NCBI RefSeq assembly: GCF_949774925.1
Contig: NZ_OX458932.1
Span: 558,001 to 622,000, forward strand
DNA length: 64,000 bases
Direction of reading: 5' to 3'
From: Candidatus Methylacidiphilum fumarolicum
GTDB taxonomy: Bacteria; Verrucomicrobiota; Verrucomicrobiia; Methylacidiphilales; Methylacidiphilaceae
Below the pieces are notes generated by a model. That model was given only the letters and a program-made list of their open reading frames with translations, was not told where the DNA came from and did not search any database. Position 1 is the first letter of the stretch. Every line of letters begins with the position of its first letter. This document shows, one piece after another, positions 21,017 to 60,130 of this stretch. The translations under genes were made by a program, and so were the position numbers.

Positions 21017-21114
21017 GTGGATCAGAAAAAGAAGCTTAGGACTCTTTAGTTTATAAACGGCGCGGGAATACCCATCCCCTTTAGGGGATTGGGATGAGAG
21101 CGCCGCAATCCATG

Positions 21115-21530
21115 CTATTTCCCTTGGCATTCCGCGATGTATCGACGGATGACTTCCGCAGATACTGCACCAGCCATTCCCACATAGTAAGCTTGCGTCC
21201 ATAGGTGTTCCCGGCGATGCCCAATGTTCTTGAGCTTCGGGAGCCGTTCCCGAGAGCCCCGCGGGACGTGTAACCCTTGAGGGGTCCCACGATCGTTGAC
21301 GGAGACCAGCGAGGAGATGCCGATACGAAGCAATGCACATGGTCGATGTCTGTTTCCAAAGCTGGCAGCCGAAAACCGTGTTGCCGGCAGCATTCGGCGA
21401 GCAGAGCCTTGCAGGCCGCGTCCACCTCGCCGAATAGGATTCTGCGACGGTATTTTGGTATCCATACAAAGTGGTAGGCGATCTGATAATGCGCCCATCG
21501 CGTTTTTCCGGTTTGCAATGTATCAGCCAT
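21115..21530 (-). pseudogene. tnpA: tnpA, Y1 (HUH) transposase, frameshifted
   Basis: REP-type single-strand transposase relic. It begins MADTLQTGKTRWAHYQ with WIPKYRRRILFG, and the HUH motif is intact as DIDHVHCFV. Near 21250 the frame is lost; the continuation with LKNIGHR, LWTQAYYVG and the catalytic-tyrosine helix RRYIAECQGK is read in another frame ending at 21115. The starting frame instead runs on to 21081 with unrelated residues. The protein therefore cannot carry HUH and tyrosine in one chain without a frameshift. Confidence 0.85.
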
Positions 21531-21548
21531 AATGCTAGGATAGCATCT

Positions 21549-22643
21549 ATGGAACGGGTCCGCATCCTATCCTTGAAGCGTATCTCCAAAAGGCAGGCTG
21601 CCATCATCCGGCAAGGCCAGATGGAGGCGGCCAAGGTCTGGATGGCGTGCCGCGATATGCATCTCAAGGCTCGCGAGACGAATGCCTCTTGGTCTGGGCG
21701 TAAAGAATATCACGAAGCCACCGCCGGAGGACGCTATGCCTTGCATTCCCAAAGCGTCCAACAGGTCTTTCGCGCATTCGACGCAGCCGTGGAAGCAACT
21801 GGCAGGAACCGCCGCGCAGGACGCAAGGAGATCCGCTATCCATACAAGGACAAACGCTTTTTCCCTCTGATGTGGCCGGCCCAGGCAATGGGATTGGAGG
21901 AAAAGCGGATCATCCTCCCCATGGGACGAGGCTGATCATCCCTGGTGTTGCCACGTCCCGCTTGGCTCTCGCGAAAATCCGCTTGCAAGGTCGTCTGGAA
22001 TGGCCTGCACAACGAATTGCACGTAACCCTGGTCGAATCCACAACCGATCCGAACTCGCAAGGAATCACGGAGCGGTGTGCCACGGTGGATTTCGGCCAA
22101 ATTCACCACGCCGCCGTAGTCACCAACAACGGGAACGCCCTAGTCGTTTCTGGGCGGGGAATGCGAACCATCAAGCGGCTGCACAGCAAGCATCTCGGCG
22201 AAATCCAGAAAAAGCGCTCCTGATGCAAGAAGGGCTCCCGCCGTTGGCGCAAGCTCGGACGAGCCAGAGCGAAGCCTACGCTGCGTCATAAACGCAGGAT
22301 TTGCGACCTGTGTCACAAAGGCATCCGGAAGGTCGTGGACTTCTGCCTGTATCATGGAATTCAATCCATCTTCGCCGGCAACCCGGATGGGGTGCGTCGA
22401 GGCGCTTGCGGACGCCGTCACAACCAGCGGATGAGCCAGTGGGAATACGGCAAGGATTTGGACTATTTGATGCAGAAGTCGGAGCAAGCCCGCATCGCGT
22501 GCTTCACCGGGGACGAGCGCGGCACCTCCAGCCGGTGTCCGGAATGCGGCCATCGCCACAAGCCCAATGGACGGAACTGGCGATGCCCGAAATGTGGCTT
22601 TCAGGGCCACCGGGATGAACAACCGGCGGCTGGGAAGCAGTAG
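21549..22643 (+). pseudogene. tnpB: tnpB with two in-frame TGA stops
   Basis: RNA-guided nuclease family gene. One continuous frame starts MERVRILSLKRISKRQAA and is interrupted only by TGA at 21933-21935 and at 22221-22223. The homologous motifs continue across both: RuvC aspartate in CATVDFGQIHHAAVV, CKKGSRRWRKL immediately after the second stop, and zinc finger CPECGHRHKPNGRNWRCPKC with GHRD. Family members usually have arginine (CGA) before CKKGSRRW, so CGA to TGA transition is likely. A late one-base shift near 22620 also changes the tail. Confidence 0.85.
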
Positions 22644-22786
22644 TAGCCCGGACACGGGCCAACGTTGTCTAGCTGAAGCACGGCCTCAAGCGCCGCCGGT
22701 TCGCCGGCGGGTTCCCCACGGGAACCGCCCACAAGCCGTGCGTACTAGCTAGAAGCTCACCCGCTTCAGCGGGTTGAGAGTGTCAC
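22612..22786 (+). ncRNA. Candidate omega-RNA / right-end region of parent element
   Basis: A 175-nt tract overlapping the tnpB 3' end, with strong GC hairpins (CCGGTTCGCCGG, GGTTCCCCACGGGAACC, ACCCGCTTCAGCGGGT), ending in TGTCAC. It is the tract kept at the same length in both 407-bp derivatives. TnpB proteins use such 3' transcripts as guide RNAs; expression here is inferred. Confidence 0.5.
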
Positions 22787-31181: not shown

Positions 31182-31745
31182 ATGAGTGAAAAACCTTTTC
31201 TAATGAGATCTCTCTCTGTCTTTGCTCTTTTACTCATTACTGGATGCGCCAATTCTCTTCCTCCAGAGTTAACATGGGAAAAGGTGCTCTATGCCATTAG
31301 AGAAAAGTTTCCGGATGTAGCTTCTGTTTCAACAGAAAAACTCGAACGATGGATTACCGTTGGGGGAGATTACGCACCAGTGCTTTTGGATGTGCGAACG
31401 GTGGATGAATATGAAGTGAGTCATCTCTATCATGCCTGGCGGGTGTCTCCCAATGAAAAAATACGGTTAGGTTATAGAGGGCTGAAAAGAGAACAGCCTA
31501 TTGTGGTCTATGATTCTGTTGGGTTTAGAGCAGCTTCCTTTGCACGAAGACTCCAGCAAGCGGGATTCTGGCAGGTTTGTTATCTAGAAGGCTCTATTTT
31601 CAAATGGGCTAACGAAGGAAGAGCCCTTTATAAAGGTGAGAAAAGAGTTACCATGGTGCATCCCTGTGATTCCTATTGGGGAAAACTGCTGAATCCAGAA
31701 CATAGAGCCCTTTCTTTGGTGGACCTCGGCGAGCCTGTTTATTAA
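31182..31745 (+). CDS. Rhodanese-like lipoprotein without active-site cysteine
   Basis: A 187-residue exported protein. A lipobox LITGC ends at C22, predicting lipid anchoring. The rest is a single rhodanese-fold domain (about 45-150) with VLLDVRTVDEYEVSHLYHAW, but the catalytic loop that normally starts with cysteine after the VVY strand reads VVYDSVGFRAA, so cysteine is replaced by aspartate. Sulfur transfer is therefore unlikely and a binding or structural role is more plausible. A mini IS element begins 25 bp downstream. Confidence 0.8.
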   Translation: MSEKPFLMRSLSVFALLLITGCANSLPPELTWEKVLYAIREKFPDVASVSTEKLERWITVGGDYAPVLLDVRTVDEYEVSHLYHAWRVSPNEKIRLGYRGLKREQPIVVYDSVGFRAASFARRLQQAGFWQVCYLEGSIFKWANEGRALYKGEKRVTMVHPCDSYWGKLLNPEHRALSLVDLGEPVY

Positions 31746-31770
31746 TTATTCAAAATAATTTAAACATTGA

Positions 31771-32177
31771 TTATAAACCGCGCGGGAATATCCATCTCCT
31801 TTAGGGGATTGGGATGAGAGCGCTAAACTAGATATTGACTGAATACGACAAAAAGTTAATCTAATACTAAGTCCGCATCGTGTGCTTCATCATAAGATCT
31901 GATGTCCTGATGCGGCCATCACTAATTAGTGATGCCCTGAGATATGGGGTTTTAAATATTAAACGTATCTACAACCCAGTTTTGGAAAAGAGACAGACCA
32001 CCGGAATGAATAGCTGGTGGTTGGGAAGGAGTAGTAGCCTGGACACGGGCCAACGTTGTCTAGCTGAAGCATGGCCTCAAGCGCCGCCGGTTCGCCGGCG
32101 GGTTCCCTACGGGAACCGCCCACAAGCCCTGCGTGCTAGCTAGAAACTCACCCGCTTTAGCGGGTTGAGAGTGTCAC
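31771..32177 (+). mobile_element. 407-bp mini IS605-type element, copy 1
   Basis: Bounded by the same ends as the element at 21051: left TTATAAACCGCGCGGGAATA and GATGAGAGCGC, right ACCCGCTTTAGCGGGT and GTGTCAC. The interior (about 31825-32000) is AT-rich and unrelated to tnpA; the last 175 nt match the parent's tnpB end/omega-RNA tract. By eye it differs from copy 2 at 59646 at only about four positions and both are 407 bp long. It sits 27 bp upstream of tRNA-Lys. Confidence 0.88.
32003..32177 (+). ncRNA. Candidate stand-alone omega-RNA, copy 1
   Basis: Same 175-nt tract and length as 22612-22786, with paired changes in the last hairpin loop (TTTA versus TTCA) and otherwise conserved stems. 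No transcript evidence is available from sequence; whether it can load a TnpB is inference. Confidence 0.4.
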
Positions 32178-32204
32178 TCATAGTTCGTTTGTAATAGCAA
32201 ATAG

Positions 32205-32278
32205 GCCTCGGTAGCTCAGCTGGTCAGAGCAGGTGACTCTTAATCACTGGGTCGGGGGTTCGAATCCCTCCCGGGGCA
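32205..32278 (+). tRNA. tRNA-Lys (anticodon CUU)
   Basis: A complete 74-nt cloverleaf: acceptor GCCTCGG pairs with CCGGGGC, D-stem GCTC/GAGC, anticodon stem GGTGA/TCACT with loop CTCTTAA (anticodon CTT), T-stem GGGGG/CCCTC with loop TTCGAAT, discriminator A. CCA is not encoded. It begins 27 bp after mini-element copy 1. Confidence 0.96.
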
Positions 32279-47050: not shown

Positions 47051-48580
47051 TTAAAAAGAACTCTTTAAAAAGAAACAATGAACTACTCCATCCAAGCCTG
47101 AGGGCTCTGGGATGGAGTTTCGCGCTTCCCTGCGGGCAGTTTCACCGGAGTATGCTCGGCTCGCGGACTTCCAGCCCGCAGCGAGGTTCCATCCGGCCAG
47201 AGCTTCCCGCTCCACGCATGGATCGGTTCCCGTCCATTCCTTTCCGCATACAACGACCTTCGGCCCCGGAAAGGCGAAGCCGTGGTCCTTCTCCCATTTC
47301 GCCAAGCCCCAGTCGAGAAGCCCGAGCGCCGAGTTCTCGTCCCGATGGCAGGACGCTCCGCATGCGCACCCATGCCACCGGTCGCCGAGGGTCTTTTTCA
47401 CGACGCCGCCGCATCGGTGGCATCTCTGGCTTGGCTTCAACGTCCTCGCCTGTGCTTCCAGGTATCCGATACCAGCCTCTTCCGCTTTGTATCCGACCAT
47501 CGCCCCGAAAGCTCCGAACGATGCGTCCAATATCTCTCGATTCAGCCCGGCTTTTTGCCGCACACGTTTCCCGGGATTTTCCCGGCTGCCCCGGGCCGAA
47601 GCCGTCATCCTTTTCGGCTCCAGCTCCTCCGTGATCAACAGTCCGCTGCGTCTCACCATCGCGGCGCTCTGCTTGTGCAGGAAATCCTTCCTGACGTTCG
47701 CCACCTTGGCGTGCATCCGGGCGAGCAGCTCGTACTGCTTGCGCAACCTCTTGGAAATGCGAAATCCCTTCCGTTTCCCGTGCTTGCGGATCGCCGCCTC
47801 CATCTTGCGGGAGATCGTCCGTCCGAGCTTCCTGAGCTTCTTAAGCGCCTTGCGCAGATGGCGCGGATTGGCGACCTCGGAAACGTCCGGCTCGCTCTTT
47901 CCCGGCTCCAACCTGGCGCTGGTCAGGAACCGCTCCGTGCCCAGGTCGAAAGCCTCGGCTCCACAGCCATGCTCCCGCGCCGGCCGGCAGCGCATCGTGA
48001 CCGACGCATGCCATCGGCCGCCGGAAAGAAAGATCTCGCATGTCCTGGGTTCCCTGGGAGTACGGGCCTTGCCCCGGATCGGGATCTCCCCGATGCCGGA
48101 GAGACGAAGCTTCAGGTGAGCGCTTCGCTCTCTGGCGAGCAGCCGCCAGTCTCCTTCGTGCTGCTTGAAGCCGAAACCGCTGAATCGCCCTGCCTGCTTG
48201 AAACGCGGGCATCCCGGCTTTTCGCCTTGCCGGACGCGGCGGAAGAACGCCTGAAAGGCGAGATCCAACCTCTTGAGCGTTACCTGGGCGGATTGAGCGT
48301 TGATCGAGGCGAGAAGCGCGCTGCGGGAACGGAGCTCGGTGAGCCATCGGCACTGCTCGACGAAACCGATGCGCCGCTTTTCCTCCTTCCACGCCCGCCT
48401 GCGCTCCTCCAAAGCTAGGTTCCAGAGGAAGCAATGGACCCAGCGCGTCCGGAAAAGCTCATCCCGGACGGTCTTGGATGGATAGAGCCGGTAGGTGACC
48501 TTGCGCTCGACCGGGCCCAGAACGGGAAGACCAGCGGGTGATGCGATCATCATGAGGCGACGCTGGACAGTGGCCAGCAA
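47051..48580 (-). CDS. tnpB: TnpB RNA-guided nuclease-family protein, full-length
   Basis: A 509-residue TnpB (Cas12 ancestor family) without interruption. The RuvC-like acids are D212 in AEAFDLGTERF, glutamate 318 or 319 in GLLITEEL and D414 in SCHRDENSA; a zinc ribbon uses C387, C390, C405 and C407 (QRCHRCG, HGCACG). The N-terminus VERKVTYRLYPSKTVRDEL begins near residue 24, so the true start may be one of the internal Met codons. The last residues read across the element's right end into flanking DNA. Confidence 0.88.
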   Translation of the reverse strand: MLATVQRRLMMIASPAGLPVLGPVERKVTYRLYPSKTVRDELFRTRWVHCFLWNLALEERRRAWKEEKRRIGFVEQCRWLTELRSRSALLASINAQSAQVTLKRLDLAFQAFFRRVRQGEKPGCPRFKQAGRFSGFGFKQHEGDWRLLARERSAHLKLRLSGIGEIPIRGKARTPREPRTCEIFLSGGRWHASVTMRCRPAREHGCGAEAFDLGTERFLTSARLEPGKSEPDVSEVANPRHLRKALKKLRKLGRTISRKMEAAIRKHGKRKGFRISKRLRKQYELLARMHAKVANVRKDFLHKQSAAMVRRSGLLITEELEPKRMTASARGSRENPGKRVRQKAGLNREILDASFGAFGAMVGYKAEEAGIGYLEAQARTLKPSQRCHRCGGVVKKTLGDRWHGCACGASCHRDENSALGLLDWGLAKWEKDHGFAFPGPKVVVCGKEWTGTDPCVEREALAGWNLAAGWKSASRAYSGETARREARNSIPEPSGLDGVVHCFFLKSSF

Positions 48581-49085
48581 TATGGTCTATCATTTAGTGT
48601 AATGACAGGTCAAGTGCGTTTGCACCTTCTGCATCACTGCGTTTACGCGCTGCACTACCATTTAGTTCTTGTCACAAAATACCGCCGCAAGGCGCTCACC
48701 CGCCCCATGCTTGACCGGTGCGTGCTATTGCGGAAATGAGCTGGGAGGGATGGGGCGGACAGCTGCTTGAGTGCAACGGAGAATCTGACCACGTTCACTT
48801 GCTGGTTGCGTTGCCACCAAATCTTGGACTCAGCCGCTTCCTGAACAATCTCAAGACAACTTCTTCCAGGCTTCTCCGCAGAGAGTTTGCCACAACGGTC
48901 GCCCGTTTCTATCGTAAGGCAGTTCTTTGGAGCCGTTCCTACTGCGTTATCACGTGCGGGGGCGCCCCATTAACCGTCCCCAAACAGTACATCGAACGGC
49001 AAGAAACGCCGGAATAGGGCGGCCTTCACCACCAGCCAAGCCCAAGGCTCTGGCTGGAGCACTGGCCGCCAGAGAGGGTAGTTTT
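47075..49085. mobile_element. GC-rich IS200/IS605-type element, open tnpB, broken tnpA
   Basis: About 2.0 kb with GC content visibly above 60%, against about 42% around it, so recently acquired. tnpB (minus) and tnpA (plus) are divergent, as in IS605. The right end (low coordinates) contains the hairpin ACTCCATCC/GGATGGAGT; the left end (about 49018-49070) contains inverted GGCGGCC/GGCCGCC with AGCCAAGCCCAAGGCTCTGG between. Ends are approximate. It is unrelated at its ends to the element at 21051. Confidence 0.8.
48602..49017 (+). pseudogene. tnpA: tnpA, Y1 transposase, one frameshift
   Basis: The 5' frame from ATG 48602 gives MTGQVRLHLLHHCVYALHYH and KYRRKALTRPMLDR, then reaches a stop. Near 48715 the homology moves by one base to a frame starting VRAIAEMSWEGWGGQLLECN, with the HUH motif in ESDHVHLLVALP and the catalytic-tyrosine helix in PKQYIERQETPE. 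A single indel near 48715 therefore inactivates it. Confidence 0.85.
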
Positions 49086-59645: not shown

Positions 59646-60052
59646 TTATAAACGGCACGGGAATATCCATCTCCTATAGGGGATTGGGATGAGAGCGCTA
59701 AACTAGATATTGACTGAATACGACAAAAAGTTAATCTAATACTAAGTCCGCATCGTGTGCTTCATCATAAGATCTGATGTCCTGATGCGGCCATCACTAA
59801 TTAGTGATGCCCTGAGATATGGGGTTTTAAATATTAAACGTATCTACAACCCAGTTTTGGAAAAGAGACAGACCACCGGAATGAATAGCTGGTGGTTGGT
59901 AAGGAGTAGTAGCCTGGACACGGGCCAACGTTGTCTAGCTGAAGCATGGCCTCAAGCGCCGCCGGTTCGCCGGCGGGTTCCCTACGGGAACCGCCCACAA
60001 GCCCTGCGTGCTAGCTAGAAACTCACCCGCTTTAGCGGGTTGAGAGTGTCAC
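59646..60052 (+). mobile_element. 407-bp mini IS605-type element, copy 2
   Basis: The same length and, by eye, about 99% the same sequence as copy 1 at 31771, with both ends of the element at 21051. It begins 1 bp after the glcD stop and ends at GTGTCAC, 78 bp before the next gene. Neither copy has a transposase; both keep the 175-nt tnpB-3'/omega-RNA tract. Confidence 0.88.
59878..60052 (+). ncRNA. Candidate stand-alone omega-RNA, copy 2
   Basis: Matches 32003-32177 except for one visible base change (GGTAAGG for GGGAAGG). The sequence immediately 3' of GTGTCAC would act as guide and differs from copy 1 (GACTTGAG versus TCATAGTT). Confidence 0.4.
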
Positions 60053-60130
60053 GACTTGAGTTTCCTTTTGCAAAACATTATTTTATGTTTTTCTTAGGTT
60101 GATGTTTTGCTAGATAAAATAGGTTGAATT

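Follow-up and report, generated by a model that had tools for sequence, protein, structure and literature searches.

A 407-bp sequence at positions 31771-32177 of the window (the whole 64,000-nucleotide stretch of DNA that was analysed) is very probably one copy of a PATE-like deletion derivative of a resident IS200/IS605 element, which would be mobilised in trans and whose RNA would guide a TnpB protein made elsewhere. By published usage this family, here called M, is a PATE-like non-autonomous IS200/IS605 element, and its anatomy is already known from Halanaerobium. To this the present case adds a small family that has spread, with its empty sites documented and the contrast between the guide-RNA region and the coding remnant measured. 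Taken together, the contrast and the empty sites turn a trans-acting guide RNA into a testable idea.

Copies, boundaries and the origin of the interior

The genome, a single contig of 2,476,671 bp within which the window lies, was searched with the 407-bp sequence. Copies of exactly 407 bp were found at four loci (M1 to M4), accompanied by a 414-bp cousin (M5) and by about 15 further loci holding longer or broken relatives. Alignments with M1 were gap-free and contained 4 differences for M2, 16 for M3 and 24 for M4. Full-length relatives are designated F, and the features used below are as follows.

Window 31771..32177, plus strand: M1, non-autonomous 407-bp copy, counted with the 4-nt TTAT target on its left
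Window 31771..31774, plus strand: TTAT, 5′ target or transposon-adjacent motif, present at all M copies and kept at the empty sites of M2, M3 and M5 in sister genome G001
Window 31775..31823, plus strand: M1 left end, 94% identical to the full-length element, with a subterminal imperfect hairpin, CATCTCC-TTTA-GGGGATTGGGATG
Window 31824..31998, plus strand: M1 interior, decayed 3′ coding end of tnpB, about 100 nt of it lost, no conserved reading frame
Window 32002..32177, plus strand: M1 right end and omega-RNA scaffold, 91-93% identical to F2, starting where the tnpB stop codon would lie
Window 32031..32177, plus strand: structured omega-RNA part of M1, 45 pairs of which 44 are kept, with covariation support
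Window 32132..32177, plus strand: M1 terminal right-end hairpin, ACCCGC-TTTA-GCGGGT, plus the 3′ end GTGTCAC
Window 32178..32197, plus strand: putative guide flank of M1, intergenic, upstream of the tRNA-Lys gene at 32205
Window 59646..60052, plus strand: M2, 407-bp copy, sibling of M1
Window 60053..60072, plus strand: putative guide flank of M2
Genome 1704353, minus strand: M3, 407-bp copy
Genome 1352991: M4, 407-bp copy
Genome 2167309, minus strand: M5, 414-bp cousin, about 75% identical to M1 in the genome search
Genome 926365: P7, left end fused to a longer tnpB tail, 82% identical
Window 21051..22786, plus strand: F1, full-length relative of IS200/IS605 type, right end intact
Window about 21130-21531, minus strand: F1 tnpA, frameshifted
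Window from about 21549, plus strand: F1 tnpB, in-frame stops present, 109 bp deleted compared with F2

The original prediction had described M1 and M2 as twins of equal length that differ at about four bases, share both ends and a right tract with the element at 21051, enclose unrelated AT-rich DNA and retain, as non-autonomous elements, an omega-RNA-like tract. M1 and M2 are indeed of the same length and differ by exactly four substitutions, and the ends are shared with F1 at 94% identity over 53 nt on the left and 92% over 180 nt on the right. The prediction thus stood in its copies, its ends, the recent movement and the omega-RNA tract (a covariation-backed fold, kept while the tnpB remnant decayed), but it failed on copy number, the pair being two of four exact-length copies with a 414-bp relative, and on the interior, which is collinear with the 3′ end of tnpB.

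All M copies have TTAT|AAAC as their left edge and TTATAAAC as their opening sequence, and they terminate in GTGTCAC, which is slightly eroded in M3 and M5. TTAT precedes most full-length family copies, being absent before F4 and F7, and also adjoins the intact relatives in sister genome G004. TTAT is part of the target, and the element proper is therefore 403 bp. At this length, and with no reading frame conserved across copies, M is too short to encode a transposase. As in PATEs, palindromes of the IS605 type lie near its ends without terminal inverted repeats, and there are several (four) near-identical copies without target duplication. The hairpins near both ends have nearly the same sequence as those of F1 and F2; compared with shuffled sequences, the right-end hairpin was more stable (z -2.8) and the left-end hairpin was not (z -0.4).

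The interiors of M1-M5 match the 3′ end of tnpB in order along the gene. Local alignments of the M1, M3, M4 and M5 interiors to F1, F2 and F5 scored 45-58, whereas Markov-resampled interiors averaged 24-29 (sd about 4); alignments to F3 and F6 were weaker. P7 and M share derived changes in which TGTCCTG-ATG replaces TGTCCGGAATG, and to judge from its sequence P7 looks like a less, roughly half-decayed form of the fusion of left end and tnpB tail that is found in M. The tnpB alignments and P7 together reject the interior as unrelated or captured DNA. An origin as a small gene was likewise rejected, as the 87-aa frame at 31880 is interrupted by stops in M3, M4 and M5. No match to a simple sigma-70 promoter consensus was found in the interior or elsewhere in the element. 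The interior also contains a perfect 18-nt palindrome, CATCACTAATTAGTGATG, at window 31917-31934, which occupies the same place in M2-M5 with one change in M3, M4 and M5.

The right-end RNA and the fate of the coding remnant

The terminal 147 nt of the right end were predicted to adopt a multi-helix fold (F2, -72.4 kcal/mol, z -4.4; M1, -64.2 kcal/mol, z -2.6). The structure was taken from F2 alone and applied to an alignment of 22 copies, drawn from this genome, from the genus and from distant bacteria. Paired cells made up 89.5% of the alignment, changes on both sides of a pair were seen in 69 cells versus 25 +/- 4 in shuffles, and pairing fell to 33-43% when the partners were slid. The covariation score was 0.299 versus 0.184 (sd 0.009) for shuffled alignments, with 0/500 shuffles scoring as high; relatedness among the sequences inflates such scores, but the excess is nonetheless large. 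These comparisons are good evidence that the 147 nt constitute a conserved structured RNA. Its 45 pairs are kept to differing extents (44 in each of M1 and M2, 43 in M3, 40 in M4 and 32 in M5, where a deletion takes out one strand of helix 2). Because the RNA adjoins the tnpB stop codon at the right end of the element, as a structured RNA over the right end and beside the tnpB 3′ end should, it is identified as the omega RNA of TnpB. No known Rfam family for the RNA was hit within the window at gathering thresholds. The M RNA would be transcribed, bound by TnpB and supplied with a guide by the adjoining host flank; the guide length marked beside M1 is assumed from known TnpB systems.

Identity between M1 and F2 changes abruptly along the element. 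It was 0.94 over the left end, 0.65, 0.33 and 0.64 over three consecutive stretches of the tnpB remnant, from which 103 nt have been deleted, and 0.91 and 0.93 over the scaffold and terminal hairpin, both of which align without gaps. The contrast between the remnant and the right end gave a Fisher p of about 8e-12, with aligned sites treated as independent. The decayed full-length copies F3-F8 served as controls and displayed no such step, the identity of the tnpB tail being mostly 0.75-0.95 and that of the scaffold 0.79-0.87. The step in M sits at the tnpB stop codon, approximately 130 nt before the terminal hairpin. Given this position, and the lack of a step in F3-F8, the master lineage of M kept the whole guide-RNA region and not the coding remnant. 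The omega-RNA tract was thus kept, by selection or by recombination. Among M1-M4 themselves the tract is at least as variable as the interior (21/176 variable sites in the right end, 6/129 in the interior), so that constraint on these copies after insertion is not visible in their sequences, as would be expected if single copies are expendable.

It is only slightly less than an even bet that M spread by its ends alone, with a TnpA acting in trans moving anything that carries both hairpin ends and the omega RNA travelling as an unused passenger. Consistent with such a passenger, the omega tract has drifted after insertion at least as much as the interior and the scaffold is broken in M5; moreover, the ends alone explain the PATEs of other genomes (PMC3119063, PMC7290912). 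However, the lineage that spread has all 175 nt of the tract at about 91% identity and the adjoining tnpB remnant at no more than 65%, and the change is located at the stop codon rather than at the terminal hairpin. Furthermore, all right-end matches genome-wide include most of the scaffold, and a short version consisting only of the ends was not seen.

A less probable account, which we regard as doubtful, is that recombination or gene conversion with F1/F2-like copies renewed the ends of M1-M4 (left 53 nt, right 175 nt), in which case their preservation would reflect recency rather than selection for the RNA. The ends of M1-M4 are 89-96% identical to F2 and those of M5 only about 80%, yet the interior is common to M1-M5 at about 90%. 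In keeping with this, M1 and M5 differ at 10% of the interior (element positions 54-182) and at 21% of the rest (Fisher p = 0.007, one of several comparisons). Recombination therefore stays alongside selection as a reading, because M5 has the interior of M1-M4 without their well-kept ends. Against it, the part of the remnant beside the scaffold (F2 1633-1671) does not resemble F copies in M1-M4 (0.64-0.67), so that a conversion tract would have to end near the stop codon, and M5 may merely have decayed faster in its G+C-rich parts.

Insertion sites and movement

Joined-flank queries were used to examine the insertion sites in the genomes of two sister species, G001 and G004. The sites of M1-M5, as well as those of F1 and F2, were unoccupied in both genomes, with flank identities of 89-96%, and the empty sites of M2, M3 and M5 in G001 contained exact TTAT|flank junctions. 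The flanks of the M copies are unrelated to one another and lack a target duplication. Empty sites and unrelated flanks therefore identify transposition and rule out segmental duplication, which the original prediction had named as part of the outcome that would count against it; its statements that the copies moved recently and that a different sequence lies beside each agree with the empty sites and with the distinct downstream flanks of M1 and M2. Segmental duplication or an assembly artefact is extremely improbable, having nothing more than the near-identity of M1 and M2 in its favour, against differing flanks, four dispersed copies of exact length and orthologous sites that are empty in two sister genomes. 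On this comparison the insertions postdate the split from the sisters, unless the sisters repeatedly underwent precise excision. No copy of M itself was found among the 39 relatives searched, and a search for plasmid and phage copies returned one distant plasmid record and zero phage.

Several sites have additional peculiarities. At two empty sites the sisters have additional DNA after the first TTAT and ahead of the right flank, closed by a second TTAT: 13 nt for M1 (window 31740-31775) and 18-29 nt for F1 (window 21020-21055). Both stretches look as if the insertion had replaced the DNA between two TTATs. The M4 site has a 15-nt indel just upstream. Four of about twenty family copies have a tRNA gene within 120 bp (47 tRNA hits in the genome), and in each case copy and tRNA share a strand; the neighbours are tRNA-Lys for M1 (window 32205-32278), tRNA-Gly for M3, tRNA-Ala for F4 and tRNA-Leu for the locus at genome 926365.

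Candidate helpers, proposed spread and related systems

Mobilisation of M by TnpA in trans, as in PATEs, would require a suitable transposase. In this genome the cognate tnpA carries a 2-nt frameshift common to every copy with both halves readable, the spacing between GYTSR and ERFPKL being 11 nt in these copies versus 9 in intact relatives (G004, L035, L037, L044 and L045). Among such copies no intact cognate TnpA was found; M would therefore have moved by means of a transposase that is now lost, or through a bypass of the frameshift. Sister genome G004 carries an intact TnpA and TnpB of the F family. F1/F2 (98.8% identity) and F4/F7 (97.7%) multiplied after the tnpA frameshift, by trans-mobilisation or recoding.

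The intact Y1 transposases of the genome belong to another element whose ends are unrelated to those of M and F. This second IS200/IS605 element is about 2.0 kb long and present in 14 copies (window 47078-49082 and 13 further loci) of 97-99% identity. Its tnpA is intact in most copies, though not at 47078-49082, and several of its tnpB frames are open. Its ends are CTACCC..TAGTTCAT and its target is not TTAT. Mobilisation of M by this element is unlikely, as ends and targets differ.

The single apparently intact TnpB of the family in this genome is that of F2, which is open over 392 aa and matches the Pfam families OrfB_IS605 and Cas12f1-like_TNB above cut-off. Its sequence retains the RuvC D-E-D residues and zinc ribbon of TnpB proteins (D181, the alternative glutamate E323, D356 and the CxxC pairs), all invariant in eight aligned relatives. 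The clade to which it belongs has no glutamate at the customary RuvC-II position; E323 instead lies six residues before the first CxxC. The same arrangement has been reported for Fanzors and related TnpBs (PMC10711439). F2 TnpB thus looks intact as a candidate helper nuclease, and since the family still has this seemingly intact protein, use of a TnpB in trans by the M RNA is plausible. Evidence that M redirects a TnpB, as the original prediction had suggested it may, did not emerge.

The sequences show that M derives from an IS200/IS605 parent by an internal deletion that brought the left end up against the tnpB 3′ end; the coding remnant then decayed and shrank, while the left end and the entire right end, with its omega-RNA scaffold, were kept. 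TnpA acting in trans would have moved M as single-stranded DNA to sites just 3′ of TTAT, and movement after the split from the sister species would have produced the four near-identical copies and left the older cousin. Each copy could then give rise to an omega RNA with the host flank as its guide, and a TnpB from elsewhere (F2 being the only intact family candidate) would load this RNA and cut the corresponding empty site, helping the M copy to persist. TnpB is thought to prevent the loss of IS200/IS605 elements upon excision. Tentatively, selection may have preserved a complete omega RNA in the M lineage once tnpA and tnpB were gone, with F2 TnpB cutting the vacated sites in trans. If so, M would be a guide-RNA-only element, parasitic on its parent for the transposase as well as for the retention nuclease, and if tnpB-less elements keep their guide RNA through TnpB in trans, the selective value of the guide RNA could be tested apart from that of the protein. 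The genome offers a compact case, with one apparently intact TnpB, four gene-less copies, distinct guides, empty sites and evenly decayed controls.

The closest anatomical counterpart is the PATE-like element of Halanaerobium hydrogeniformans, an IS605 element with an internal deletion, present in one copy (PMC7290912). Like M, it lacks tnpA and combines a left end (28 nt) with the last part of tnpB (58 nt) and an entire right end (160 nt). M differs in its four exact-length copies and cousin, in empty sites that are documented and in a right-end RNA with covariation support. The homogeneous PATEs of Haloquadratum walsbyi resemble M in being short and transposase-free, with IS605-like near-terminal palindromes and several near-identical copies (PMC3119063). 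They differ in being archaeal, and omega RNA lay outside that study, which predates TnpB guide RNAs. In Haloquadratum, insertions of PATEs are strain-specific, and PATEs and IS605 elements have moved even with almost every resident IS200-type TnpA gene broken, a puzzle similar to that of M (PMC3119063). ISDra2 and its relatives share with the parent of M a Y1 TnpA, a TnpB and a structured right-end RNA (PMC8612924, PMC10278001), as well as a short fixed 5′ target (here TTAT) and a flank at the guide position. In contrast to these elements M is without both genes, and the local TnpB differs from the ISDra2 type in its rearranged, alternative RuvC glutamate (PMC10711439).

A close relative of the TnpB was found in a Methylacidiphilaceae MAG. 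More broadly, the TnpB clade that combines a DLG/DFG motif with the alternative glutamate comprises F2 and L035-L045 (part of these loci were aligned), whose MAG labels are Methylacidiphilaceae, Natronospirales, Proteobacteria, Nitrospirae, Holophagaceae and Chloroflexi.
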